A program made the position numbers and the translations under genes. Source: a virus. Taken from it: 25,985 nt of DNA. The stretch's first letter is position 1, and each line of letters begins with the position of its first letter. Below the pieces are notes generated by a model, which was not told the origin of the DNA, made no database searches, and saw only the letters and a list, made by a program, of their open reading frames with translations. Of the stretch, positions 6,244-24,683 are shown piece after piece. The DNA lies in the IMG/VR virus record IMGVR_UViG_3300013372_000155, positions 1-25,985 of that record. One strand, written 5' to 3'.

Positions 6244-6585
6244 CTAGGGCTGCTGGCTAATTCCATTGACGTTTCCGTCATCCTCCGGCGTTTGTGTCCC
6301 CTCTTGCGTAGAGATCACATAACCGCCATACCCAGTCGTCACTAAGTCATTCGGATCTACTGCTACCGATACATCCGGCCTAGGAAACCTAATCGTAATT
6401 CTTTCCGTCTTCCTAGCCGGCAATCTATACGGATCAAACTCATCTGCACAACCCTGATCACACACCGATAAACCAGGGAAATTAGGATCTGGCCTCATCA
6501 CCGCATGCGGACGCTTGAGACGACAACGGTCACAGATTGCGATTGCAATATCCGAGTAACCCGTCGTGTCTAGGAATCTAGGCAT
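6244..6585 (-). CDS. Small Cys-rich virion-associated protein (113 aa)
   Basis: I chose ATG 6585 (MPRFLDTTGYSDIAIAICDR) over an upstream in-frame start at 6684. The upstream part lies wholly inside the GIY-YIG gene, whereas 6585 overlaps that gene's stop by 8 nt and has a GGTGGG Shine-Dalgarno-like run upstream. The protein has a CDRC pair and a later CDQGC group, which could form a zinc site (residues about 18-50). A basic PARKTERITIRFPRP segment and an acidic Gln-rich tail follow. It lies between the connector protein and the fibres, so a role in the tail or at the head-tail junction is inferred. The family is not known to me by name. The GIY-YIG gene may have been inserted just ahead of it. 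Confidence 0.82.
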   Translation of the reverse strand: MPRFLDTTGYSDIAIAICDRCRLKRPHAVMRPDPNFPGLSVCDQGCADEFDPYRLPARKTERITIRFPRPDVSVAVDPNDLVTTGYGGYVISTQEGTQTPEDDGNVNGISQQP

Positions 6586-7222
6586 GATCAGCCCACCTAC
6601 ACTCAGTGATGTACCCGTATTTGCGCCCTCTTTGAATCTCTGGACGATTAATCCATCTATGAATTGTGCCATGCCTGATGCCAAGCATCCTAGATGCTTC
6701 CATCAATGATTTATATGTCACCCCGTTGATCACGCACGGTTTCATTGGATGGCAATTTTTAAGCGCTTCAACATGCTGAGCAGATAACTTTTTTCCGCTC
6801 AAAGCTTGGCTTATCTTCATTCTTATCTCGGGCCGAGCCATCGTTTCTTTCAACTTTTTGTATTGTTTTGCCCGAAGATCTGGATTAGCCATAGGGTTGT
6901 TTGCTTTTAGGATCTCAGCAATCCGTTTTTTGAATTCGTCCGTATGCCTGCAACCCGTTGCACCCAAACCGCCAGCGCTAATGTTGGCAAGCGTGTATCC
7001 CATGCTTCTGAAGGAATCAATCAATACTATCTCGTGGTCAAACGCATCTTGCTCGGTTTGCCACTCTGCTAACACCTTGACCTCAAATCCACCGTACTTT
7101 TGTACGATTCGCTTCCAAACCACGTTCCTGCCAAGTTTGCTATATGCTCGCTTAATAGACCCCTTGCCGATGTAAAACACGGTTCCATCGGGTCTATAGT
7201 GAGCGTAGGTAGCGAAACTCAT
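6578..7222 (-). CDS. GIY-YIG homing endonuclease with NUMOD motifs
   Basis: This is a 214-aa free-standing selfish endonuclease. Residues 1-80 form a GIY-YIG nuclease domain: the first motif is degenerate (YAHY at 6-9), the second is FYIGKG (16-21), with Arg25, the expected catalytic Glu64 (DHEIVLID) and Asn80. Residues about 85-145 (GLGATGCRHTDEFKKRIAEI and SQALSGKK) look like NUMOD3 DNA-binding repeats. Residues 163-195 (CVINGVTYKSLMEASRMLGI then THR-type turn and WINRP) look like a NUMOD1/IENR1 helix-turn-helix. The start overlaps the connector gene's stop by 4 nt (ATGA), so it is coupled to structural gene translation. Such genes copy themselves into phages lacking them by cutting near the insertion site. 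It is intact. Confidence 0.9.
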   Translation of the reverse strand: MSFATYAHYRPDGTVFYIGKGSIKRAYSKLGRNVVWKRIVQKYGGFEVKVLAEWQTEQDAFDHEIVLIDSFRSMGYTLANISAGGLGATGCRHTDEFKKRIAEILKANNPMANPDLRAKQYKKLKETMARPEIRMKISQALSGKKLSAQHVEALKNCHPMKPCVINGVTYKSLMEASRMLGIRHGTIHRWINRPEIQRGRKYGYITECRWADHA

Positions 7223-9132: not shown

Positions 9133-10254
9133 TCAGCACTTAACAGAACCGCCACGCTTTTTAGCGGGAGCCACAGTGACAGACCTTTCAGTCTTAGTGA
9201 CACTACCTTCAGGCGGCTTCTTTGAGAAGAAACCCTTAATACCTTCCATCATACGCTTTGGCGCACCTAGGATGGCATTACGTATAGCCTCGTTCTCTTG
9301 CGTCTGGCTCTTTTCCCAGTTTTCATACGCACGATTGGCTTCGTCCGTCTTCATCTGGTTCTTAGCTTCCTGCGGAACCTTACCGCCTTCGTTATATCTC
9401 TCGTTAGAGTAACGCTTGGCAGCTTTCATCGCAGAAGCATTCTCCGACGCATGCGCTTTCATCAAACGCGATTGCGCCGGAGTAACAGATCCACCGCGCT
9501 TAAACGTACCGGACAACTGATTGATACTCACCGGCGTAGACGGCTTCTTGCGGCCTTGTGGCATCGCTACGGGGGCACCGCTATCAACAACTCCCCCCGT
9601 AGCGTAGGCTTTTTTTGCTGCGCCACCTTTCATGTACGCCATGCCACCACCCATCATCTTGGTAGCACCGCCATGTTTGTAGCCGCCCGCATTAGCCTTC
9701 GCTACACCACCGGTCTTGTAGCCACCAGCGTTGCCAAGCTTCACACCTTCCGTCTTAGCCGGAGAATGATCCACCTTAGCCGTGCGCATCATCGTCTCGC
9801 CCTTCTTAGATTCGATGATACCGCCCGCTTTGTAGCCACCCTGGCCCATAACGACTCCGCCCGTCTTAAGCCCTTTATGCGCCTTAGACGCAGGCTTTGA
9901 AGCGTGTTCTTTCAACGCCTCAACCGTCTTAGCCATCTTCTTCATTTCTGATTTGTGCTCAGACTTCGACTCGCCGCCTTCCTTCATCATGCGACCAGCC
10001 ATCCCTACCGGAGCAGCAGGAGCCGCAGCAGCAGGCATAGCCATCATCGCACGACGACGCGCAGCCATCGAAGGACGCTTAGGTGCCATAGCCGGAGCCA
10101 TTCCACCTCGAGCAGGCATCGCAGGTTGTCCGGTCATCGTACCAAGACCAGGCATACCGCCAGCTTGCATCTTGACCGCTCCGCCCTTTTTGAGCTTTAG
10201 CTCAACCGTGGGCTCGGTGGTCATCATCTTCACCATCGGCTTAAACTGACCCAT
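9133..10254 (-). CDS. K-x-G-G repeat protein (373 aa), probable virion component
   Basis: The 373-aa product is highly basic and low in complexity. It carries about ten [K/R]-x-G-G or related motifs: KKGG 22-25, KEGG 92-94, KTGG 130-133, KAGG 142-145, KTGG 180-183, KHGG 193-196, KRGG 252-255 and RGG 367-369. Three of them fall in the fuller unit GGYKxGG (139-145, 177-183, 190-196). Residues 30-95 are rich in Met, Ala, Pro and Gly; residues 296-350 are helical and charged. The Shine-Dalgarno AGGAGG sits 5 nt before ATG 10254, predicting strong translation. It lies between the beta-helix gene and a terminator in the head gene block. Packaging with DNA or capsid lining are possibilities, but the function is unknown. 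Confidence 0.85.
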   Translation of the reverse strand: MGQFKPMVKMMTTEPTVELKLKKGGAVKMQAGGMPGLGTMTGQPAMPARGGMAPAMAPKRPSMAARRRAMMAMPAAAAPAAPVGMAGRMMKEGGESKSEHKSEMKKMAKTVEALKEHASKPASKAHKGLKTGGVVMGQGGYKAGGIIESKKGETMMRTAKVDHSPAKTEGVKLGNAGGYKTGGVAKANAGGYKHGGATKMMGGGMAYMKGGAAKKAYATGGVVDSGAPVAMPQGRKKPSTPVSINQLSGTFKRGGSVTPAQSRLMKAHASENASAMKAAKRYSNERYNEGGKVPQEAKNQMKTDEANRAYENWEKSQTQENEAIRNAILGAPKRMMEGIKGFFSKKPPEGSVTKTERSVTVAPAKKRGGSVKC

Positions 10255-11338: not shown

Positions 11339-12010
11339 CTAAATTAAATTCTCAGATAAGTACGTGATCGCAGACTTTAGAGCATCAACGTCATCACGAA
11401 ACAATCCAAGACCTCGATTGCACTTGGTGCATAACAACCCTCGCGCTTTCCCAGTCTTGTGACAGTGATCGACAGGCATTGCAATTACCTTGTTCCTGAT
11501 AACAGCAGTTTCCGGCTGTTTACAAATGGCACAGACTCCATTTTGCTTGGAAAGAGTTTCCTTGTACCACTCCAAAGAAACTCCATACTTTCTACGAAGG
11601 TCTTGATCTGCGTAATACTCAGGGTTAGCGAGCCTGGATTTTTTATGCCATTCCCGCATGTACTCTTTGTACTCCTCCGCAGAAGACCTGCGCTCCTTCC
11701 AATAAAAGTTGTCTTTTGACCAAGGCAATCTTGCATCTGGTCGTGCTGGCTGAGATCGCTCAGGCTTTTCTGGGACGTCTTTGACAAAAGCCCAGAAATC
11801 TTCCCGCCACGATTCAGACATGTCCAAACGATGGTATCGCCGCAATCCACACCACGCTCTGTAAGCCGGGTGCTTTTCACGACTTCCCCAATCGTTTGAA
11901 CGGGTCTGCTCAACACTTCCATGCCTTTGCACTCGCATGTAATGCTTCCGGCATAAGCCTTTGGCAATCGACGGTTGAGTGCAGTTAATAACATGACACT
12001 TCTCAGGCAT
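11339..12010 (-). CDS. Homing endonuclease, endonuclease VII type (223 aa)
   Basis: I chose ATG 12010 (MPEKCHVINC) over an upstream in-frame GTG at 12049 because GGAG lies 6 nt before it. Residues 5-23 hold C5, C10, C20 and H23, a likely small zinc knuckle. Residues 45-108 (AWCGLRRYH, SWREDFWAFVKDV, NFYWKE) resemble the module accompanying phage HNH endonucleases. Residues 140-210 are a recombination endonuclease VII (His-Me finger) domain: C160-x2-C163, DHCH 181-184, ARGLLC and C194-x2-C197. It sits alone between the capsid and beta-helix genes, as mobile free-standing homing endonucleases do, and is intact. Its ribosome site lies inside a hairpin, suggesting restrained translation. Confidence 0.9.
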   Translation of the reverse strand: MPEKCHVINCTQPSIAKGLCRKHYMRVQRHGSVEQTRSNDWGSREKHPAYRAWCGLRRYHRLDMSESWREDFWAFVKDVPEKPERSQPARPDARLPWSKDNFYWKERRSSAEEYKEYMREWHKKSRLANPEYYADQDLRRKYGVSLEWYKETLSKQNGVCAICKQPETAVIRNKVIAMPVDHCHKTGKARGLLCTKCNRGLGLFRDDVDALKSAITYLSENLI

Positions 12011-12016
12011 CGGTAT

Positions 12017-12052
12017 CTCCAAGAGTTTATAGCCCTTGGAGTTTACCACTCC
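12017..12052 (-). promoter_or_regulatory. Shine-Dalgarno-masking hairpin with competing upstream hairpin
   Basis: In the minus-strand transcript, CTCCAAG (12041-12035) can pair perfectly with CTTGGAG (12023-12017), a 7-bp stem with an 11-nt loop. Its 3' arm contains the GGAG ribosome site of the endonuclease gene (ATG at 12010). A second hairpin just upstream, GGAGT (12052-12048) with ACTCC (12042-12038) and a 5-nt loop, uses the same CTCC bases. The two cannot form together: one hides the ribosome site and the other frees it. Masked ribosome sites are known for T4 homing endonuclease genes; the switch reading here is inference. Confidence 0.65.
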
Positions 12053-12074: not shown

Positions 12075-12989
12075 TCACGCACCCGGAGTTCCGTACATTG
12101 CGCGCGGGTCAGTAAAACCTACATCATACCTCTCCGTTGCCTTGTAGCGCATCGTGTCGGTTTCGAAGTCCCCTTCCATCGTCTTTTCCAGACGACGGCG
12201 CATGAGCAGTTTCATGCCTTCGGGAGCATCGGTCTGAACCCACCATGCGGTCGGGCTGGTTAGACGCGACAGAACGGCAGCACCTTCATCAAGCAGACCA
12301 ATCGACTTGATGGGGTTGATGTCGTTGTTAGCGTTACCGGCACGAAGCACGGACTTCAGGAGAACCTCGGCCTGGAAGACGTTGCCAGGAGCCACCACCA
12401 GTTGACGGGGAACCAGACGAATCTTCTTGCCGTTGTTGTCTACCGCTTGACGGATCTGAATCAGCATCTGCTCAAGACTGGTTTGCGACAGAACCGCAGC
12501 AGTCGTCAGCAGGTTGCTAAACGTACCGTTCACGATAGGATGGGCGTTGCTGTTCAGGGCAACACCGTCACCACCGGGGTAGGACGAGTTAAACGCACGG
12601 TTCAGGACGTTTGCCGACAGGGTTTCCTTAGTCTCAATCAGCGACTGAGCAAGGTGACGGGCATAGACCTGACCAATACGAATATGATCACCGTCCTCAA
12701 CAAGAACTTTGGTCAGAGCAAACGCCAGACCGTAGACCTTGTAGACGTACCGCTTGAGGAACAACACACCACCCTGCTGATAGGTCACCGGGGTGCCATC
12801 AGGAAGTTGGGGAGCCGCGCCAAAGCCGTACAGAACGGGTTCTTCGTGGTAGTTACGGGGAATGCCTTCCTGCTCGCGGAACACGCGGCTCCACTCATCA
12901 GTGCGCTGATCGTAAACACCGTCAAAGCACTCATTCAGGATAGGTTCAACAATTGACCGAAAATCGGTACTGCGCATCGGGGCTGCCAT
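12075..12989 (-). CDS. Major capsid protein (HK97-type fold, 304 aa)
   Basis: The 304-aa product has the size and layout of a phage major capsid protein. There is an N-terminal arm with charged helices (FRSIVEPILNECFDGVYDQR), a likely extended loop (YGFGAAPQLPDGTPVTYQQG), a spine helix (ARHLAQSLIETKETLSANVL) and a P-domain ahead of PRQLVVAPGNVFQAEVLLKS. The C-terminal half (AWWVQTDAPEGMKLLMRRRL, RYKATERYDVGFTDPRAMYG) is typical of HK97-fold shells that bind neighbouring subunits. The product begins MAAPMRSTDF, and AAGGAGG 8 nt before ATG 12989 is the best ribosome site in the window, as expected for the most abundant virion protein. It follows the scaffold and head protein genes in the usual order. 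Confidence 0.88.
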   Translation of the reverse strand: MAAPMRSTDFRSIVEPILNECFDGVYDQRTDEWSRVFREQEGIPRNYHEEPVLYGFGAAPQLPDGTPVTYQQGGVLFLKRYVYKVYGLAFALTKVLVEDGDHIRIGQVYARHLAQSLIETKETLSANVLNRAFNSSYPGGDGVALNSNAHPIVNGTFSNLLTTAAVLSQTSLEQMLIQIRQAVDNNGKKIRLVPRQLVVAPGNVFQAEVLLKSVLRAGNANNDINPIKSIGLLDEGAAVLSRLTSPTAWWVQTDAPEGMKLLMRRRLEKTMEGDFETDTMRYKATERYDVGFTDPRAMYGTPGA

Positions 12990-14187: not shown

Positions 14188-15120
14188 TTAACTCCGATTG
14201 TTTCGTGCTTGTTCAGCGTATCGTTTAATCATCTTCGCCCGTTTTGCCGGGTCATCCCAGAAACCAGCATCTTTCATAGCCCTGACCTGTTCAGGTTCAA
14301 GATAAAAAGATCCTGTTCCGCGATTCGGAGATGATTCACGACCCGATCCGGTCACAAAACTTCTCGGCTTTCTCCTTGTGGATTCTTCACCACTCTGATT
14401 GTACCGATGTGGCAACCTTTTTTGCAAGCGATTGTCAAGTTCTTCCCAATACTCTTCACTATTGGGATCCCAACCTTCTTTATGCAGCTTTTGATCAATC
14501 ACTTTTGCAATCTGGCTGTCCTCATCGTCACCTTGAGGGTCATACCACGGGTTATCTCCCATCCAGCGATTCGCATATTTCATCAACTGAGGATTAACTG
14601 CACCGTTTTCGCTGGTTTGCGCCTTAGCCGACTCTTGTTTAGCCCGCTTTAACGCATCTAGACGCCCTCGAGTTTCATACCAAAGCTCTTGCGCTTTTGC
14701 TAGTTCTGAACCGTTTGAGTTATCTCCGGCCTCTCGAACCTTTGCTTGAGCATACTGAAGCCTTAACTCCTCGTCTTCAATCGCTTTGTCAAGTCGCGCA
14801 AGATCAGATGAATGCGTTTTCCTCTCTACAACCGATAAACGCTCCATTAACTCCTGATTCTGACGCTGAAGAAGCTCAAGCCTGCGATCCTTTTCCTCGT
14901 TCGTGCGCTTGATGTATTCCTTCTTGGCACGACGACGAGCTCTCCGAGCATCTCGAATAGCCTCGGTATCGTCAGGATGGTCTTCATCCCCTTCTTCTTG
15001 AGAAACTTCCCCGCCCTCTGCCCTTTCTTCCGGCATGAGCTCTTCAGGAAGTTCTACTTTTGCCGAACCGTCTTGTTCCTCAGTAACGGCAATCTCTTCT
15101 GGTTTTTCTTTCGTGTTCAT
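14188..15120 (-). CDS. Capsid scaffolding protein-like (310 aa)
   Basis: The 310-aa product has an acidic N-terminus (residues 1-50, mostly Glu and Asp). A long charged coiled-coil region follows (about 55-170: RRARRRAKKEYIKRTNEEKD, LLQRQNQELMERLSVVERK), then a Trp/Asp-rich linker (WMGDNPWYDPQGDDED). The C-terminal end is basic and helical (AKMIKRYAEQARNN). Acidic coil plus basic C-terminal helix, placed between portal and capsid genes, is the usual scaffold plan; the basic tail contacts the capsid protein in known systems. Its start overlaps the co-chaperonin gene's stop by 4 nt (ATGA). It could instead be a minor head protein. Confidence 0.75.
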   Translation of the reverse strand: MNTKEKPEEIAVTEEQDGSAKVELPEELMPEERAEGGEVSQEEGDEDHPDDTEAIRDARRARRRAKKEYIKRTNEEKDRRLELLQRQNQELMERLSVVERKTHSSDLARLDKAIEDEELRLQYAQAKVREAGDNSNGSELAKAQELWYETRGRLDALKRAKQESAKAQTSENGAVNPQLMKYANRWMGDNPWYDPQGDDEDSQIAKVIDQKLHKEGWDPNSEEYWEELDNRLQKRLPHRYNQSGEESTRRKPRSFVTGSGRESSPNRGTGSFYLEPEQVRAMKDAGFWDDPAKRAKMIKRYAEQARNNRS

Positions 15121-15542
15121 ACGAATGCCTTAAATGCTAAGGGATCACACGTTACCTTTGCGATAACTTCGTGATCGTTGAAAATAGCGAACAACGCAGG
15201 TTCTTCCTCATCTGTAGGAATCTCCCACCTGTCACCACCCCACTTTGGCACCCGGATGAAGTCACCCGCCTGACACCAAGCACCCTCCGGCCACGATTGC
15301 ATCGTGTCTCGGTGCTTAAACGCCAACGGACCTACTTCAACTACCTTGGCAATCATGTTCTGCCACTTTTCGGCCTCTTTCGTCTCATTCACAAGGATCA
15401 AACCACCGTGTGACTTTTTCTTCGTCCTACGAAGCTGCACAAGGATTCGTCCACCAAGAGGCTTTGCACCGGGATCCACGCTCGGAAATGCCCAAGCTAA
15501 TTCAGCATCGTTAGATGCTACCGGCTCATTCATGTTCATCAT
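15117..15542 (-). CDS. GroES-like co-chaperonin (Cpn10), phage-encoded
   Basis: The 141-aa product shows the Cpn10 pattern. PLGGRILVQLRRTKKK (28-43) is the first barrel strand. SHGGLILVNETKEAEKW (44-60) matches the GroES mobile loop, with GGLIL in the place of GroES GGIVL, the tripeptide that docks onto GroEL. IAKVVEVGPLAFK (64-76) is the next barrel strand and AGDFIRVPKWGG (92-103) corresponds to the conserved G-D segment. It is longer than host GroES (about 97 aa), with an N-terminal extension and a C-terminal FNDHEVIAKV end. The start may be any of the first Mets (15542 or 15533). It overlaps the upstream gene by 17 nt and the scaffold by 4 nt. It probably redirects the host GroEL to fold the capsid or another head protein, as T4 gp31 does. 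Confidence 0.85.
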   Translation of the reverse strand: MMNMNEPVASNDAELAWAFPSVDPGAKPLGGRILVQLRRTKKKSHGGLILVNETKEAEKWQNMIAKVVEVGPLAFKHRDTMQSWPEGAWCQAGDFIRVPKWGGDRWEIPTDEEEPALFAIFNDHEVIAKVTCDPLAFKAFV

Positions 15543-15857: not shown

Positions 15858-18398
15858 CTATTGCAGCTTGGTTGAGAAATCTACTACCGTCTTATCCTGA
15901 TCTAGTTTCAGTCGCGCAGCATCCCGAGTAAGCCTTGCAGTCTCAATCCTCTCTTTTGTCTCTTGATCGCCCTTAGCTATCGCAAGACGCAATTGAAGAT
16001 CTTCCATCTCCATCTGCTGCTTCTGCTGTAACTCCAACATATCCAGTTGAAGCTTCTGAGCCATCTCCTGACCCTTGAGCTGCAACTCTGCCTGATCCCG
16101 CGCCTGGCGCCTCTGAGTCTCAGCCATGCTCGTCTGCAACAACACCTGACCATCCGGCGTCAAATCAGGCTTCGGCTTGAACTGCTGGATTGCCTGCGTC
16201 ATCTGCTGAATCACCGGCAGAATCCCACTCAACGTCTGCTGACTGTCCATGTCTACATGTTGCGACGCAGCACCGTACAACTTATCCAAAGCCTTCGGAT
16301 CATCCAACAACTCATAGTTGTCCGGCTTCTCACCAATAGACCTGTGGATATAACCTTCCATGCGGTTCAAATACCACAACGCTATGTGCTGCTTAATGTG
16401 TTCCATCGCCTTCGGTAGGAACGTCGGAGCAATCATTGGGTTCTGACCAAACACCGGGTTCTTGGCGTAATCCAAATGAGCCTGTATATGACCTAGATGA
16501 TCCTGTTCAGGATAAGCAAACGCTGCCTGACCAATTGACATCGCTACGTTTTCGTTAGCAGGATCCATCTTCTCCGGCCCAGGCATGTCAATCATCACCT
16601 CGTTAATACCGGGAACCTTCAACTGCTTCAAAAACCGCTCAATCACAATCTTCCGGTTAAACAGGTCAGGGTTCTTCTCCATCACCGCCATCACCGCTTG
16701 CGACTGCGCCATCCTCTGCGTCTCAGAGAAGATATGCGGATCACTTACCGGGATAACATCAGAAACCTTCGCAAAGTCCTCACGCTTGATATCTAGATCA
16801 ACCATGTCCTCACTACGGCGCATGTCCTCTAAATACCAACGGTTGATCCTCTGAAGGATCTTTAAGACCCTGCTCTGACTCTTATGAAGCCTTGCATGGA
16901 TACTTGAAAAGACCGCAGCACCCTGCTCAATCAACGCCTGAGTCGTTCCTACCGGCGTCTGAGCATTGACATCAGCGATCTTCTCTTCCGCGGTCGTTAC
17001 AACCCCCTTAGCTGCTGTTGTCAACCACCCCAACAGTTGGAACAACACCGGATTCGGCGGGTTAAAGGGAAACGGCATCGCAATCTTGCGAATATCATCT
17101 ACACCTGGAGCCGCTTCAATCTCCGCTACTTGAGTTACCTCAACCTGCTGGCTCTGACCCGATAGCTTCGCTCCCTTGAGCTTTAGCATCGTCGCAGCAT
17201 TGTTGATATGCGCTGAGTCCATCAACGCCCTCAGAGCACCCGTAAGAGCCGCAGACAACCCGCCAATCAAATGAGGTAGACCAATCGCATACGCACCGCG
17301 CCACGGAATAAACTTGTACTCGACAATCCAGTCAAGCTTTTCCATGACCTCATCGCCCTCTTCCCAGTTTCGGTAGAGTCCAATGACTTCAGTCTCAAGC
17401 TCATCAATCATCAAGATATACGGGGCAAGCTCTCCCTTCGTATAAGGGTCGCTCTCAATCTCAAGCCACGTATAAACGTGATACACCCGACGAACACCGT
17501 CTTCGTTATCGTTCGGGCTCTTTCCTTCTATCTTGTCCGTAGCCTTCTGCGCTGAAGTAGGCTCTGGATCCATCGTCGCCCGGACGTAACTTGCATCCCG
17601 GTACAACCCCGACCGAATCCTCTGCCGATACTCATAGTTCGACAGATCATGTACCTCTGTAACCCTCTGCGCCGTGTAAAAGTTCGTCGCCGCAAACGGT
17701 AAGATAACATTGTCAATCGGAAGGAATTCCGCGCAGGGACGCTTTTGCCTCTCGTCATACCAGAGCTTCAGATACTGAGAACCTCCTAGCGGAAGCTGCG
17801 TCAACATCTGCTCCTGCTCATCTAGGAACTCTGGAATCTGCTCGGTCAACTGCCAGTTCATGAAGTCGCGCTTGCGCTCTGCAATCGCAATCTTCTCTTT
17901 GTCTACATCCCCGATAATCTTCGTTCTCGTCGGACCATCCGCAGGAAACAACTCTTTGATCGCTCGAGCGGCAAAGTCAACACAACCCTCAGCCATGATC
18001 GGATGCACGACCTTAGACGCACCGTTAAACGTAGCGCCACCAGGAGCATCGTTCCCCATCCCAGTTCGACGAATACCCTCTTCATACTGCTTATCACGCT
18101 GCTTGCGAGCTTCCTTGTCTTTCTCAATTAGCTCAATGTATCTCAGCGCGAAACCAGCAATCTCATAACCGTCGTAAGCATCTACGTCAGCAAGATTCTC
18201 GTAGAAGTCTTGGTTCTCCATCGGGCCAGCAGGCAACTTAACCAGAGCAGAACCATCAGGAAGCTCTTCAATCTCGGATTCCTCAAGATCAAGATCTACC
18301 TCTACGGGCTCTTCTTGGAGCTTGTCCCCCTGCGCTAAACCACCGATGCCAGGGATCTCTCTACCGTAGTCCTGCTCAATAGGGAATTCAGTTGCCAT
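15858..18398 (-). CDS. Portal protein (846 aa)
   Basis: This 846-aa protein would form the 12-fold ring at the capsid vertex through which DNA enters and leaves. Residues about 60-140 form a helical, charged region (YIELIEKDKEARKQRDKQYE) leading into GGATFNGASKVVHPIMAEGC, a conserved-looking portal entry segment. The core has CAEFLPIDNVILPFAATNFY, WRGAYAIGLPHLIGGLSAAL and a helix with ALTGALRALMDSAHINNAAT, all characteristic of large P22-like or podovirus portals. The C-terminal 110 residues are a Gln/Glu-rich coiled coil, likely a barrel extending into the head. The acidic N-terminal 55 residues are extra. The start overlaps the upstream stop by 11 nt, with GAGG as the ribosome site. The portal identity is firm; the exact family is not. 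Confidence 0.9.
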   Translation of the reverse strand: MATEFPIEQDYGREIPGIGGLAQGDKLQEEPVEVDLDLEESEIEELPDGSALVKLPAGPMENQDFYENLADVDAYDGYEIAGFALRYIELIEKDKEARKQRDKQYEEGIRRTGMGNDAPGGATFNGASKVVHPIMAEGCVDFAARAIKELFPADGPTRTKIIGDVDKEKIAIAERKRDFMNWQLTEQIPEFLDEQEQMLTQLPLGGSQYLKLWYDERQKRPCAEFLPIDNVILPFAATNFYTAQRVTEVHDLSNYEYRQRIRSGLYRDASYVRATMDPEPTSAQKATDKIEGKSPNDNEDGVRRVYHVYTWLEIESDPYTKGELAPYILMIDELETEVIGLYRNWEEGDEVMEKLDWIVEYKFIPWRGAYAIGLPHLIGGLSAALTGALRALMDSAHINNAATMLKLKGAKLSGQSQQVEVTQVAEIEAAPGVDDIRKIAMPFPFNPPNPVLFQLLGWLTTAAKGVVTTAEEKIADVNAQTPVGTTQALIEQGAAVFSSIHARLHKSQSRVLKILQRINRWYLEDMRRSEDMVDLDIKREDFAKVSDVIPVSDPHIFSETQRMAQSQAVMAVMEKNPDLFNRKIVIERFLKQLKVPGINEVMIDMPGPEKMDPANENVAMSIGQAAFAYPEQDHLGHIQAHLDYAKNPVFGQNPMIAPTFLPKAMEHIKQHIALWYLNRMEGYIHRSIGEKPDNYELLDDPKALDKLYGAASQHVDMDSQQTLSGILPVIQQMTQAIQQFKPKPDLTPDGQVLLQTSMAETQRRQARDQAELQLKGQEMAQKLQLDMLELQQKQQMEMEDLQLRLAIAKGDQETKERIETARLTRDAARLKLDQDKTVVDFSTKLQ

Positions 18399-21300
18399 GT
18401 TTTTTCCTCAAGACGGACAAACCGCCAAGCTTTACCAAACCGCCTTTTTTCTTTTTTGTTCTAACGTCCGGCATAGCCTCGGATTTGAAGTAGGGCATCA
18501 ACACGCCCTCTCCCGTTTCAACCATATCCAATATGTAGTTGCGAATGTTTTTAGGCGTTGGCTTTACGCCTTGCCCCTGAAGAGTATACGCAGTTTGTTT
18601 CTCTAACAGGTCTAGAGCATCGCCTCTAGGAGACTTCAAACCCGTCAACTCTCCCCCTCCAAACCACCTTCCCGCCTGCGCCATCCCACCAGGAATGCCA
18701 AGCTCATTCGCTATATCCAACATTTTTGATTCGGCCAAACCATATTCCGTAGAACCGAAACCGCCTTGCCGAGTAAAATATGGGTGATACGGGCTTGCTA
18801 AGGTTTCTCCAGCGGCTTCGTGAACATCCAACACAACAGATTTCCCAAAGTCACCGGCTTTTTGCGTTCCATACGTTGGGATCTTGTAGTTGGTCGGTAT
18901 ATCCGCTTTAACCTGCTCTCGCAAGTTTGTACCGCCTTCAATGACCTGCTGAACGCCTTGTCGATGTACGGGCATCAATGGCAATCCCGTGCCATATCGT
19001 TGCTTGAACTTCGCCATCTCTTCGGCTACCGTCTTTTCGTCTAACGGCAATCCTCTAGCTTTCATATCCCTCAAGAACTGACCTACCGCCATCTCATTCA
19101 TAATTGAATTACGAGCAGATGCCGGGGCTGTTTCATATACGAACTGCTCAAACTTTTCCGCAGGAATCCCTCTTTCTAGAGCGGCCATCTTCAATGGATA
19201 CAACGACCCGTAGAAAGTTTCACCCCCCAGCGGAAGCCCGCGCATAATCTGCTGTTTGATAAGCTCTCGGTTCCGCGGATCGTCATACATCTCTCCCACG
19301 TAACCTACATCTGCTCGCGCAGGTTGATACCGCGGGAATCTCGTCTGCTCTACCCCAGGGAAACCTTCTAACGCTTCTTTAATGAGCGACCGGTCAAACG
19401 CTTGCAACCCAGGAGGAGGAGGCGTCCACGGCTCTGTCGGTTGACGCAAAAACTCTTCTGCCCTTTGTGCCCTTTCCTCTACAACTGACGGTACGTTTCT
19501 AAATCTTCTAGCCAGTGGCGCTGAATACGGCTCGTTTACAAGCTCACCAAAATCACTGACAGCAGACGGTTTATCGATACGCTCCCAACGGAATCTTGAT
19601 AACACATCTCGTTCTGCTTTCTTTTCTACTTCTTGCTCAGAAAGCTTTGGATTATCTTTGGCTATCCGCTTTGATGACTGCTGAATAGCTTTATCAAGTT
19701 CCGCAGGCGTGGCAACTGGCTTTTCAGAAATCTCCTCTAACTTTTTGGAAACTCTGATTGCAGCGTCTGACGCTTGTTTTGCACCCTTTGCTCCGGCTTT
19801 CGCTCCGGCTACAGCACCCTTAACTATTCCACCAGCCTGAAACGCTTGAACTAAGCCGCCCTTCTTGAATCGCTGCACCGGTGTTTGACGGTAAAGAATC
19901 GCCGTACCTTGCTCCGGGTTCATCATCCCTTCATAACCGTACTCTTTGACCATTCTTTCAACGTCTGTAAACGCTTGAAACGGGTCAGTCAAACCTTTGT
20001 TTGCTTGCGACGTATACGGAATCCTGTTCGCCTCCGCAGCAAGCACACGGAACTTCATAGGATCCGCCATAACGTCATACAAACTCTCCCCTTTAGCTCC
20101 GTACCTATACGGACCTAAACCGGGTTCAGGCTTTACTATAGAAGGATCTCCGGTATACGCATACGATCTTTCCATGACTGGATTCATCGCATACTTCAAA
20201 CGATTCATCTCTTCACCAGCAATACCACTTCCATACTTCAGCGGATCTAAAAACCTAATATCAGGAGAATGACTGAAGTGCGTCAGCATTTCCGATGCCG
20301 TCGTCCCCGCGGCAGGTTTACTCAAAGATTGAACGTACTCCGGCATACCGCCTTTGTACCCTAGATCAAGAAACTCCGGCGGTAGCAACACACTTTTCTG
20401 CGGCGCAAACTGAAACTCTTTCCACGCTTCATTCAAACTGGCATCAATGTCCGCGATATCTTTTGTTAACCCGCGCCTGCTTGCTTCCCAACGAGCCGCA
20501 TTCAGCTTGTTAATCCTTTGCTTCAACGGAGCATTGACAGGCGTGTAGTTCACAAACGAGTTCTGTCCTCGCGTTTCACTTGCCATCGCCATTCTTGCTA
20601 ACGGCGAAAACATCCGCGAATGCGCTCCGTATGCAATCTCTTCGCCTTTAGGCCCAAACGAGTTCCCATGTATGGCATGACCATAAAAATCATGCACTGC
20701 ACGAAACATCTCGTTTGTATTCAACCCGGTCGCAGGATCTACCGCATTGAGAAAATCGTGTATATCGCCACCCTGGTATACATACAGATGACGATTGCCA
20801 TATATGTCACGCAACATCTCGTTACTGGAACGGTAGTTCCCCTCTCCAGCACGGTGATACGACATATTTACCGGCAGCGCTCTAAATTGATCTGCCGTCT
20901 CTTTAGCTAACTGCCTATAAGCGGCCTCCATCAACTGATCGTAGTTTTTGGCACCAGTTGACTCAACCAATTCAGGGAACTTACTACCATAAGCATTGAA
21001 TACAGCCTGCTTATAGTCGTCACCACCTTCTGCCGCAATCTGAAAGGTTCGCCCAATCGCAGACTGCTTCGCTAGGCTCGACTCCGGCATTTCCGGGAGT
21101 TCATACTTCTGCCCAAGCGTTTTTTGACTGTAGTCTTCTACAGACTTCCTGACAAAATTTGTTGGGTCCTTAACTAACTGCCCAACCGCCTCGTCCGATA
21201 TTGGTTGCGGAACATCGCCTCCACCTGATCCTGGGGCACCTTCACCTGCCCGTACTTCTTCTCGTACCCCTCTATCTTTTGATCCAGCCTCTTGAGCAGA

Positions 21301-21984
21301 TCTTGATTTGACTCTGTAGAACGGGCCTTCTTGGATTGTTTCATATACGCCCCCCTCCGGGGCTGCTTTCATCATTAAACCTTGAGCACCTAGAATCCTC
21401 TCTGCACCCTCAGCTAACATAGGCTGTGCAGCCCTTAAACCGCCCTGCAAGCCCCTCTGAGCCTGCGCTGCTGCTGCGCCCGCCGGAATAGCCTGAAGCG
21501 CCTGTAACTGAACCTGCGGCATCGCAGGAATCTCTGGAATCAACTCAGCTACCGCAGACAACGCACCCATGCCCTCTTCGGTAGTCGGCACGTACATCTG
21601 GCGTTTCATCATGCCTAACGGGTCTTTTTCGCCAGTAACCAGCGATTGAACCATCGAGGGCACCGATAATGCCGCAGCACTACCCAATGACGCTAAAGCC
21701 TGACCAGCACCGAGAGTCTGCGCAGGAAGCTGTTTAAGCCTCTCTACGAACGTCGGATCTTTCTCAAAGACCCTAGATACATCCCCGCCGAGAATGTTCT
21801 CGCTCGGGACATCCCTCGCCCTCTCGCGCTCTCGAGCCATCGCTAACGCAAGATCGAATGCCTGATCCTCTGACATCCCGCCAGAAGTTAATTGATCCCG
21901 CATGGCATCCGTGTCAGACGCAAACGGATCCGGCTTACGAGATTTTGATGCGATATAACGGTCTAATCGGTCAGCAAGGTCCAT
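18388..21984 (-). CDS. Giant multi-domain phage protein with ADP-ribosyltransferase-like segment
   Basis: The 1198-aa protein lies between terminase and portal. Residues 1-200 are helical and Ala-rich with no clear signal. Residues 426-480 form a motif block, FRAVHDFYGHAIHG (H431, D432, G435, H436), then FGPKGEEIA, H455 and SETRGQN, recalling a domain of phage polyvalent proteins and possibly metal-binding. Residues 566-705 (LTHFSHSPDIRFLDPLKYGS, GEEMNR, RSYAYTG, SLYDVMADP, EYGYEGMMNP, TAILYRQTPV) resemble ADP-ribosyltransferase folds. RFKKGGLV at 705-712 and KKKKGGLVKLGG at the C-terminus are K-x-G-G motifs. Residues 880-1165 form another unrecognised globular region (VLDVHEAAGETLASPYHPYF). 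Its AGGAGG ribosome site is strong. It may be injected with the DNA or act in the host; function is inferred. Confidence 0.7.
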   Translation of the reverse strand: MDLADRLDRYIASKSRKPDPFASDTDAMRDQLTSGGMSEDQAFDLALAMARERERARDVPSENILGGDVSRVFEKDPTFVERLKQLPAQTLGAGQALASLGSAAALSVPSMVQSLVTGEKDPLGMMKRQMYVPTTEEGMGALSAVAELIPEIPAMPQVQLQALQAIPAGAAAAQAQRGLQGGLRAAQPMLAEGAERILGAQGLMMKAAPEGGVYETIQEGPFYRVKSRSAQEAGSKDRGVREEVRAGEGAPGSGGGDVPQPISDEAVGQLVKDPTNFVRKSVEDYSQKTLGQKYELPEMPESSLAKQSAIGRTFQIAAEGGDDYKQAVFNAYGSKFPELVESTGAKNYDQLMEAAYRQLAKETADQFRALPVNMSYHRAGEGNYRSSNEMLRDIYGNRHLYVYQGGDIHDFLNAVDPATGLNTNEMFRAVHDFYGHAIHGNSFGPKGEEIAYGAHSRMFSPLARMAMASETRGQNSFVNYTPVNAPLKQRINKLNAARWEASRRGLTKDIADIDASLNEAWKEFQFAPQKSVLLPPEFLDLGYKGGMPEYVQSLSKPAAGTTASEMLTHFSHSPDIRFLDPLKYGSGIAGEEMNRLKYAMNPVMERSYAYTGDPSIVKPEPGLGPYRYGAKGESLYDVMADPMKFRVLAAEANRIPYTSQANKGLTDPFQAFTDVERMVKEYGYEGMMNPEQGTAILYRQTPVQRFKKGGLVQAFQAGGIVKGAVAGAKAGAKGAKQASDAAIRVSKKLEEISEKPVATPAELDKAIQQSSKRIAKDNPKLSEQEVEKKAERDVLSRFRWERIDKPSAVSDFGELVNEPYSAPLARRFRNVPSVVEERAQRAEEFLRQPTEPWTPPPPGLQAFDRSLIKEALEGFPGVEQTRFPRYQPARADVGYVGEMYDDPRNRELIKQQIMRGLPLGGETFYGSLYPLKMAALERGIPAEKFEQFVYETAPASARNSIMNEMAVGQFLRDMKARGLPLDEKTVAEEMAKFKQRYGTGLPLMPVHRQGVQQVIEGGTNLREQVKADIPTNYKIPTYGTQKAGDFGKSVVLDVHEAAGETLASPYHPYFTRQGGFGSTEYGLAESKMLDIANELGIPGGMAQAGRWFGGGELTGLKSPRGDALDLLEKQTAYTLQGQGVKPTPKNIRNYILDMVETGEGVLMPYFKSEAMPDVRTKKKKGGLVKLGGLSVLRKKHGN

Positions 21985-22027: not shown

Positions 22028-23449
22028 CTATGCGGAGTATGGATTCTCTTTCGTTCTTCCGGTATCCACATAATCATCTTCGTCCCAGTCATCCCGCGGC
22101 GGAGGATCGACTTCTAACCATCCAGCATCTCTGAGCCATCTCAGAGCCTGCGTACACGCATCCACGAAATCGTCCCTAGTCGACTCAGGGAACGCACAAA
22201 CCTGACTTACTAACGGCTCCGCCCAGTCCTTTACGTACCCCTTCCTTCTGTCCGACTCAGGAACCCACACCCGCCCTCGAGCAATAATGTGACTGACGAT
22301 ATTCATCCGCTGGATCTTGTCCGCATTCCCCGGGTTATATCCAGACACCGGAAGATGCGCCCTTCTGAGATCCTGAATCAAACTAATCCCGGCGGACTTA
22401 TCCTCAACAAGGATCGTATCCACCCGCTTCTTGTCTTTTCCTTCCCCGAAGATCACCTCGTACTCTTCCTGAACCTTTTCCCTGAGATCCGGGTACTGTA
22501 AGAAATCCTGCCAGCAATCTAAGAGCATGACCGACATCGGGCCATCAGTCGGCTTGAATACTCCCCAAGTTCCGCAAGCCGTCGGGTCATTGTGCGTCTT
22601 CTCAGAGGTCGCACAGTCATAACTCTGAACGATGTACTCAAACCGCGGGAACTCCTTGCCCGCAGGCCAAAGCTTGAACCATTCCCTCTTTACGATTCCA
22701 CCGTCCTCGGGATCTATGATCTCAGCGTGAATCTCCTGCTTACCTAACTTTGTACCCTCGTAACTCAAAATCTGCTTCTGGAAGTTCTCAGAGAGATTCT
22801 TTAAGTTTGCATACGTGCTCGCTCGAGTGATGACTACATCGTCACCTTCTCGACCAATCAGTTCTAATAACAGATCTTTCGGCTTCGGCGTCGTTGTGAC
22901 TATCATCCGGGTTTTCATGTCCGGGAGCTTCAATCGCAACCCGAACTGGATCTGATCCCACGCTTCTTGAAGGTAGTCCCAGGCAGCGACCTCATCACCC
23001 CAGCCACCATGAAACTGCGGGCCCCTGAAGCGCTCCGGCTCACTCGCAGGAATACCCTTGATCAAACTACCATTGATGAGCTTTAACTCATGCAACGCCT
23101 TGTTGTAGTCCAGCACAAGCTCAGGAGGGATTACATTAAGCAACCCACTGTCGCCTTCGAAGCATGTAGCCCGGACGTCCGAGCTTGTAGGAGCCGCAAC
23201 CAACCACCGGGTTTTCGGGTAGCTCCACGCCCACCAACCAACCTGCTCTGCCGCGGTCTTAGTCTTGCCCGCACCCCTACCGGCTAACATCAACCATATT
23301 GACCACCAGTCTCCAGGCGGCAGGATCTGATGCTTATGCGCGTTGATCAGCCAGTTAGCCCTCCAACCAAAGGCTATCTGATCATGCGGAGCTAACCTCT
23401 CAAACTCTTCTCGAGTCTTCGGGTCTTTAAGTATCTCGAGGACGTTCAT
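22028..23449 (-). CDS. terL: Terminase large subunit (packaging motor ATPase-nuclease)
   Basis: The 473-aa protein drives DNA into the procapsid and cuts the concatemer. Residues 1-200 are the ATPase domain: Walker A AGRGAGKT (56-63), Walker B ending D152-E153 in GGWGDEVAAW, and a coupling-type TTTPKP motif (185-190). Residues about 270-440 are the RNase H-like nuclease: YDCA (D278), VEDKSAG (D350) and DDFVDA (D427-D430), the expected acidic triad. Family features match the Terminase_6/6C group. The ATG overlaps the HNH gene's stop by 4 nt (ATGA). All key residues seem present, so it should be active. Confidence 0.96.
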   Translation of the reverse strand: MNVLEILKDPKTREEFERLAPHDQIAFGWRANWLINAHKHQILPPGDWWSIWLMLAGRGAGKTKTAAEQVGWWAWSYPKTRWLVAAPTSSDVRATCFEGDSGLLNVIPPELVLDYNKALHELKLINGSLIKGIPASEPERFRGPQFHGGWGDEVAAWDYLQEAWDQIQFGLRLKLPDMKTRMIVTTTPKPKDLLLELIGREGDDVVITRASTYANLKNLSENFQKQILSYEGTKLGKQEIHAEIIDPEDGGIVKREWFKLWPAGKEFPRFEYIVQSYDCATSEKTHNDPTACGTWGVFKPTDGPMSVMLLDCWQDFLQYPDLREKVQEEYEVIFGEGKDKKRVDTILVEDKSAGISLIQDLRRAHLPVSGYNPGNADKIQRMNIVSHIIARGRVWVPESDRRKGYVKDWAEPLVSQVCAFPESTRDDFVDACTQALRWLRDAGWLEVDPPPRDDWDEDDYVDTGRTKENPYSA

Positions 23450-24000
23450 TCACGTGCTAGGCGTTCAGCAAAGGCTTGCATCTCTTCAAACGTCTCTTGA
23501 GGCTCTGGACGCCAATCTGTCTGATCCCAGTTGCCCTTGCCGTGGTTACACTCGTGGCACAACACCTGAAGGTTATCTAACTCTAAGGCCAACTCAGGGA
23601 ACAACCTCCGCGGCTTGATATGGTCTACATGTATCACAGCGCCTGTATCCGGCGTTGCACCGCAGCACATACACTTGCGCTCATACTTGATGATCGCCTG
23701 CATCCTTAGCTTGCGCCACTCATAAGACGAGAGGAACGCATCGGTGTTTGGGTCCATCCCAACCACCTTCTTGACTTTACCAGTCGCCTTGTTCTTCGCT
23801 ACGTAAGCTTTTGTCCAGGCTATGTGCTGTTTTACCCACGCCTTATCAGATACGCCTTCCGGCTTGTTAAACCCGTCCAGCGCTAATCCTCTGCACGCTA
23901 ACGTATATACGCTTACCTTGAACTCGGAAGCCCGCGGAAGCTTCAGCCTGATATATTCCCAGACCCTGCCCTTGTATAGCGTATTGTCACGTTTTGACAC
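23446..24000 (-). CDS. HNH endonuclease next to terminase (about 184 aa)
   Basis: The frame is open from TTG 24006; I place the start at GTG 24000 (MSKRDNTLYK), but TTG 24006 cannot be excluded because no strong ribosome site decides it. Counted from the longer version, residues 112-155 form an HNH zinc nuclease: C112-x2-C115, IHVDHIKPRR (D128-H129), LDNLQVLCHECNHGKG (N145, C150, C153, H155). The N-terminal 110 residues look like a DNA-binding or helical region (SSYEWRKLRMQAIIKYERK). It lies exactly between TerS and TerL, where related HNH proteins are known to take part in terminase cleavage of packaged DNA. It could instead be a homing endonuclease, though its tight overlap with TerL argues for packaging. 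Confidence 0.88.
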   Translation of the reverse strand: MSKRDNTLYKGRVWEYIRLKLPRASEFKVSVYTLACRGLALDGFNKPEGVSDKAWVKQHIAWTKAYVAKNKATGKVKKVVGMDPNTDAFLSSYEWRKLRMQAIIKYERKCMCCGATPDTGAVIHVDHIKPRRLFPELALELDNLQVLCHECNHGKGNWDQTDWRPEPQETFEEMQAFAERLARE

Positions 24001-24142
24001 CAGCAATCATCCGTTGAGATAGATTACGACACAACGCTACTAGAACCCGTACCTCTGCCTCAAGGAGTTCAATCCTCTCCGTCAGGGCTAGTTCTCTGAC
24101 CTCTTGCTTCGCTTTCTCATCTAACTTTTCTTGGTTAGTCAT
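23987..24142 (-). CDS. Small coiled-coil protein between TerS and HNH (51 aa)
   Basis: ATG 24142 overlaps the TerS stop by 8 nt and the frame runs to TGA 23987, overlapping the HNH gene by 14 nt. The 51-aa product (starting MTNQEKLDEKAKQEVREL) is strongly helical and charged, with heptad-like spacing in ALTERIELLEAEVRVLVALC. This looks like a short coiled coil, plausibly a partner of the terminase complex. It fills what would otherwise be an empty gap between TerS and the nuclease. Confidence 0.75.
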   Translation of the reverse strand: MTNQEKLDEKAKQEVRELALTERIELLEAEVRVLVALCRNLSQRMIAGVKT

Positions 24143-24683
24143 CGCTGGCCTCAATCTGTCTTGTCGCTTCTAGATTCTTCAATACCGTGTCAAATACGTG
24201 TCTTGACTCTATCTGGATCGGGGATCCGTCTGCTGCACCGGTCAACGCTACTCGATCCCCGTACTTCTTTGGGTTCCACTTTGCGAGGAGCTTCAGCCTA
24301 GTTTCAATCTGGAGCTTTCTGTGACCCAGCATATCCTCAACAGTAGTCGAGGTCCCTTGGTCAGACATCGTCTGCTTCTGGCCCCACTGTGGAGTGTCTG
24401 CAATCAATAAACACTCTTCCGCAATAGCGTCGTAGCCTTGATCCCGCGCACGCGCGATTGCTCCCGAAAGATCTGTGCCGCTCTCACCCAAAGCAGCATC
24501 CTTAGCCATCCACTCATAGATCTTCTGCCAAGCTGGCATATGGTCATCGCGGCAGATCTGACGTAGCGGTTCTCCGTTACTGAGTCTTTCGCATATCTCT
24601 GCTGCGATCTCTGGTGTGTACTTGCTTGGTCTACCGATCTTTTTTGGGACCTTTTCTTGTTTTATGACGGTTTCCGATTTCAT
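24135..24683 (-). CDS. terS: Terminase small subunit (DNA recognition, 182 aa)
   Basis: The 182-aa product carries an N-terminal helix-turn-helix region (residues 17-60: KIGRPSKYTPEIAAEICERL then NGEPLRQICRDDHMPAWQKI) like the Sf6-type small terminases. This domain recognises the packaging site and the ring it forms recruits TerL. An oligomerisation region follows (ISGAIARARDQGYDAIAEEC-like: LSGAIARARDQGYDAIAEEC), then QKQTMSDQGTSTTVEDMLGH and the segment RKLQIETRLKLLAKWNPKKY, a common small-terminase feature. The C-terminal part may bind TerL. The ribosome site is modest (AGGG). It is the first gene after the folded leader. Confidence 0.88.
   Translation of the reverse strand: MKSETVIKQEKVPKKIGRPSKYTPEIAAEICERLSNGEPLRQICRDDHMPAWQKIYEWMAKDAALGESGTDLSGAIARARDQGYDAIAEECLLIADTPQWGQKQTMSDQGTSTTVEDMLGHRKLQIETRLKLLAKWNPKKYGDRVALTGAADGSPIQIESRHVFDTVLKNLEATRQIEASDD

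Follow-up and report, generated by a model that had tools for sequence, protein, structure and literature searches.

Polyvalent proteins and ADP-ribosyltransferases (ARTs) have been placed beside terminase and portal genes, and published analysis has assigned both polyvalent proteins and head-linked ARTs to the virion (PMC5512222, PMC9503650). In the H-Y-D ARTs of polyvalent proteins, the histidine lies in strand 1 and the tyrosine in strand 2 (PMC5512222). Here we describe P0001, a modular protein of 1198 aa encoded between the terminase large subunit and portal genes in a 25,985-base stretch of an IMG/VR virus record (hereafter the window), which had been predicted from sequence to carry an ART-like segment. 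As in polyvalent proteins, at least two domains of different predicted activity are joined in P0001, and its gene lies in a late virion gene setting. We lean towards reading P0001 as a compact polyvalent effector whose gene fills a slot for exchangeable cassettes, located between terL and portal in a set of tailed phages.

Genomic setting of P0001

The ORF of P0001 (18388..21984) was found where the original prediction had placed it between terL and portal, and lies on the minus strand, which that prediction had not given, with its ATG at 21984 and its stop at 18388. By Pfam and PHROGs, the upstream border of the slot is the terminase large subunit gene (terL, 22028..23449, minus) and the downstream border is the portal gene (15858..18398, minus). 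The P0001 ORF begins 43 bp downstream of the end of terL, while its 3′ end and the portal ORF overlap by 11 bp, and from this spacing P0001 is probably co-expressed with the head genes. Also on the minus strand of the window are genes for the small terminase (24135-24683), a GroES-like protein (15117-15542) and the major capsid protein (12075-12989), together with an HNH-like ORF recognized by eye (23446-24006).

Two further minus-strand ORFs were noted by eye only: one of 214 aa (6578-7222), whose start resembles GIY-YIG-type endonucleases, and one of 236 aa (11339-12049), which resembles an HNH endonuclease. Both are probably homing endonucleases among the late genes. Relatives of the window additionally encode giant proteins of 2468-2987 aa that end in SPLDYLKKARR (G001, 22267-31230; G002, 49308-56714), probably a further giant protein with a virion or delivery role.

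The terL-portal slot is an accessory position

To avoid bias, the slot was surveyed by searching with TerL, which yielded 80 loci, 43 of them with both borders. The 43 complete terL-portal gaps span 2.0-8.2 kb, and all but one (42/43) contain large ORFs, many of which are built from recurring modules. Canonical ART-PolyVal is present in 11 of the 43 slots, the type of middle part found in the near relative L004 in 10, DUF7178-like domains in 9, HDxxGH and ART-like domains in 7 (invariably as a pair, HD-ART), the L011-type N part in 6 and the C module of P0001 in 4, with none of these modules in the remaining 15. Other slot proteins exceed the Pfam cut-offs for ART-PolyVal, LPD23, DUF7178 or PcfJ. 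Relatives with similar TerL differ completely in module content, and in the isolated Caulobacter phage RW (TerL 44% identical) a tRNA-Val alone lies between terL and portal, the RW portal being annotated as hypothetical and placed by size and gene order. Since slot contents vary to this extent and RW has only a tRNA, the slot is an accessory position, and the original assumption that a structural protein is usual here is wrong for this lineage. The slot thereby gives a fixed place in the genome from which phage effectors can be gathered for comparison.

Module architecture

P0001 is composed of several modules, all given here with their minus-strand coordinates in the window. The N module (residues 1-211; 21352..21984) is shared with L004 and occurs in just 11 ORFs among the fetched loci. 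It is followed by a phrog_3170-like HDxxGH module (residues 300-558; 20311..21087), which forms part of a confident structural model and contains a putative metal site (residues 431-475; 20560..20694), and by the ART-like module (residues 560-713; 19846..20307) with H569, Y608/Y610 and E685. A first KKGG stretch (residues 706-722; 19819..19869) precedes the C module (residues 741-1180; 18445..19764), in which hhalign delimits a DUF7178-like core (residues about 929-1109; 18658..19200), and the protein ends in a KKKKGGLVKLGGL tail (residues 1176-1198; 18391..18459). Residues 1-211 and 741-1190 thus form separate modules that the earlier description did not include. The prediction of a polyvalent protein of several modules, one of them ART-like, beside head and packaging genes was borne out, with HDxxGH, ART-like and DUF7178-like domains found. 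No zincin-like peptidase domain was recognized in P0001, and its matches to DUF1522 and PqqF were rejected as far below the cut-off.

Elsewhere, the modules of P0001 are found in different orders, encoded by individual genes or built into giant proteins of other phages and of prophages. Among the IMG/VR relatives we observed HD-ART, HD-ART-C and C-HD-ART arrangements, split genes and the C module alone; in L005-L008, for example, the parts are divided over two genes of about 840 and 500 aa. The ART-like domain comes after the HDxxGH domain in nearly all relatives (187 and 183 ORFs). In L004, residues 1-211 and 701-1185 of P0001 are matched while the middle is different, with the first KKGG stretch as the downstream boundary of the exchange, showing natural cassette exchange between closely related neighbours.

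The HDxxGH domain

The motif block of H431, D432, G435, H436, E448, E449 and H455 was found exactly at the predicted positions and is invariant in 49 relatives. Across 88 phage and bacterial sequences, H431, D432, H436, E448, H455 and E470 are 100% conserved, and six polar residues that never vary suggest a metal site. On this conservation, the domain is probably a metal-dependent enzyme common to phages and bacteria. Its sole match in P0001 is phrog_3170, and for this domain neither P0001 nor eight bacterial representatives could be assigned to a Pfam or NCBIfam family. Many phages carry HDxxGH. In bacterial genomes, a scan returned at least 80 loci; their products are giant prophage-like proteins or free-standing ones of ∼230 aa, mainly from actinobacteria. 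It is therefore an unnamed but widespread domain of phages and bacteria with a strictly conserved H/D/E set.

In 24 Micromonosporaceae-type loci, the stand-alone HDxxGH gene adjoins an N6-DNA methylase gene in every case (24/24) and lies with a kinase gene in 22/24, and some of the loci also have a Cas3 gene nearby. Micromonosporaceae genes of this kind near N6-methylase, kinase, UvrD-like helicase and Cas3 genes were seen at L272, L277, L295 and L300, and these surroundings are a possible defence neighbourhood. Among phage proteins, gp205 of Rhodococcus phage E3 contains an HDxxGH domain and carries the annotation ‘structural protein’. A structure-search match (Q0E607) further led to ORF7 of Pseudomonas phage LKA1 (188 aa; L333:3662-4228), which has FRAFHDLGH...EEE...DTVGQSRY and is probably a distant single-domain relative of the family.

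Several known families were considered for this domain. A classical HD phosphohydrolase was rejected, as the preceding invariant histidines, H399 and H409, lie on or by predicted strands rather than in a helix, and Pfam gave no HD match. Coq4 (PF05019) has an HDxxH-x11-E motif that is alike by eye, yet hhalign gave 0.6%, and this link was dropped as unsupported. The aromatic amino acid hydroxylases (PF00351), a comparison chosen after the motif was seen, have a similar H-x4-H...E spacing in their iron site, with an hhalign value of 33% (P 4.5e-4), weak HMM enrichment and PAH entries at E 1-3 in Foldseek; this link is suggestive only.

The ART-like domain

The two domains were modeled together with high confidence (HD-ART model, residues 294-714; pLDDT 89.7, pTM 0.88). 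H569 lies on predicted strand 1 and Y608 on strand 2, and both are invariant in the 49 relatives. The third ART position, E685 in P0001, is E in 34 of these relatives, Q in 9, S in 3, T in 2 and N in 1. In the homologue from Limnohabitans phage DC33 the equivalent residue is D, and this position is D or E in DC33, zth2-2 and most relatives. A T4 Alt-type ART with an R-S-E active site could be ruled out, as the residues are the wrong ones, H and Y being invariant on the expected strands.

In profile searches, P0001 had no match to Pfam ART-PolyVal at an E-value of 1, nor had any of the 49 relatives at 0.1. Alignment of the domain with canonical ART-PolyVal by hhalign gave 40% (P 2.9e-4), and the canonical ART-PolyVal HMM scored P0001 at 3.4 bits, below the best of 1394 other ORFs, although 13/49 relatives scored above that best ORF. 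When the HD-ART two-domain model was searched against the PDB, there was no match at E < 0.001 and no ART among the 50 matches listed; BFVD matches to this two-domain query include one named ART-PolyVal-like. The segment originally placed at residues 566-705 therefore holds up as a discrete domain (560-713) with invariant H and Y on predicted strands and a weak profile match, but falls below the Pfam cut-off. The proposed structure prediction and fold search delivered a confident HD-ART model, while the search with the two-domain unit gave no solved ART among the 50 matches listed.

These search results would fit an alternative in which residues 560-713 are some other alpha/beta domain and P0001 has no ADP-ribosylating activity, since neither Pfam nor the PDB returned an ART and the profile match is weak. 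We regard this as rather unlikely given the invariant H and Y on the strands expected of an ART, a third residue that is D or E in DC33, in zth2-2 and in most relatives, and the repeated company of the domain with canonical ART-PolyVal and DUF7178 domains. We consider residues 560-713 to be a probable ART.

This company is seen in the isolated phage DC33, in which three domains lie in a single 3125-aa protein: a P0001-family ART bearing H-Y-D residues, a canonical ART-PolyVal and one that is DUF7178-like. Prophage-like giant proteins also combine related module families, and the closest isolated relatives of the parts of P0001 are freshwater phages. Searches of plasmids and of 200 genomes from the Paraburkholderia order with the DC33 ART returned no matches. 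The DC33 record (L435, PQ492659) carries the taxonomy Inoviridae, though its 39-kb genome encodes this 3125-aa polyvalent-type protein; DC33 is probably a misfiled tailed phage.

The C module

Aligned by hhalign with the DUF7178-like slot proteins, the C module gave 99.9% (E 4.6e-34) over ∼180 columns, compared with 0.1% for HDxxGH against DUF7178 as a negative control. The Pfam DUF7178 model (PF23802) itself had no match to P0001, and the link between the two runs via slot proteins, two of which exceed the Pfam cut-off. By this chain of sequence comparison, the C-terminal region is a remote relative of DUF7178. In L245, DUF7178 is fused to HDxxGH.

K-x-G-G stretches at module borders and junctions

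Both predicted K-x-G-G stretches are present, at residues 707-711 and 1179-1187. In 67 nonredundant slot proteins, K-x-G-G occurs in the last 24 residues of 40, against 4.5 expected from shuffled tails, and it is five times as dense in other regions as within the HD, ART and C domains (4.11 versus 0.81 per 1000 residues). In the comparison of P0001 with L004, the DNA sequences become similar again at the KKGGLVQA codons; relative to L002, P0001 is missing a segment of ∼140 aa, with the junction at GGCGG. The occurrence of K-x-G-G both at module borders and at the recombination junctions seen points to a possible route of cassette exchange.

A 373-aa late protein of the window (9133..10254, minus) contains 10 K/R-(x)-GG motifs, ends in KKRGGSVKC and has no Pfam or PHROG match. 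Late proteins of 369-397 aa with 9-11 K/R-(x)-GG copies are present in all seven genomes compared, the window and six relatives, and in G006 there are two gene copies. Two readings of the K-x-G-G stretches remain, in which they are either linkers for module recombination or a tag or processing site. A bolder proposal would take three things together: that the slot is a recombining cargo locus, that K-x-G-G is a short tag at the end of effector cassettes, recognized by or processed with the ∼10-copy late protein, which would load effectors into the head, and that HDxxGH is a new family of metal-dependent enzymes of phages and bacterial defence neighbourhoods. As a joint claim this is a long shot, though the tag idea, if true, would explain how effectors enter the head.

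A proposed role for P0001

In the role that we propose, P0001 would be made late, together with the head genes, carried in the virion and brought into the host along with the DNA, as its position, its module company and the literature (PMC5512222, PMC9503650) suggest. Early in infection, the ART-like domain might then transfer ADP-ribose from NAD+ onto a host molecule, while the HDxxGH domain would act in the host cell as a metal-dependent enzyme. New combinations could arise by cassette exchange through recombination at the K-x-G-G stretches that border the modules. RNA polymerase, originally put forward as a target, found no support in this analysis and is a possibility that stems from T4 Alt.

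P0001 might instead be a late intracellular protein that is not packaged and acts in the producing cell, for instance to counter superinfecting phages or to act on the metabolism of the host before lysis. The late-gene position is what the data show, packaging being a further step, and the methylase, kinase and Cas3 genes around the Micromonosporaceae-type HDxxGH genes would fit a protein of this kind; we nevertheless judge it unlikely, since both polyvalent proteins and ARTs linked to the head have been assigned to the virion in published analysis. Less likely still is an accessory structural or assembly protein of the head or portal vertex whose enzyme-like domains are inactive and which aids packaging or capsid stability: the position between terL and portal, a third ART residue that is neither E nor D in 15/49 relatives and the annotation of the phage E3 protein are in its favor, but the complete change of slot modules between relatives with similar TerL, the lack of any protein gene in the RW slot and the six unvarying HDxxGH residues, hard to account for without chemistry, argue against it.

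Comparison with known systems

The core FRxVHDxxGH...GE...H...ETRGQN is common to P0001 and the phrog_3170/HDxxGH family, but in the terL-portal slot HDxxGH is nearly always paired with an ART-like domain. Compared with DUF7178 (PF23802), the C module is too remote for Pfam and forms a longer, highly conserved module. As in ART-PolyVal (PF18760, Tox-ART-HYD2 clade), the invariant H and Y of P0001 fall on predicted strands 1 and 2, and an acid lies in a GYxG motif near the end; P0001 differs in scoring below the Pfam cut-off and in that this acid, E in P0001, is replaced by Q, S, T or N in part of its clade. ART-like domains of the P0001 type also have a conserved YGTG...PEPGLG...LYD..DP core that is not seen in canonical ART-PolyVal copies of the same slots. 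The likeness to T4 Alt lies in the proposed scheme, an ART that is packaged in the head and enters with the DNA, whereas the active site of Alt is R-S-E and the invariant residues of P0001 are H and Y.

The overall resemblance is to the polyvalent proteins of Iyer et al. 2017 (PMC5512222), which are likewise large, multi-domain, encoded beside virion genes and composed of ART-like and other predicted enzyme domains; module families are moreover common to P0001 and giant prophage proteins. Unlike those proteins, P0001 has no recognized zincin peptidase and none of its domains reaches a Pfam cut-off, and it is compact, divided into exchangeable cassettes within one fixed slot.
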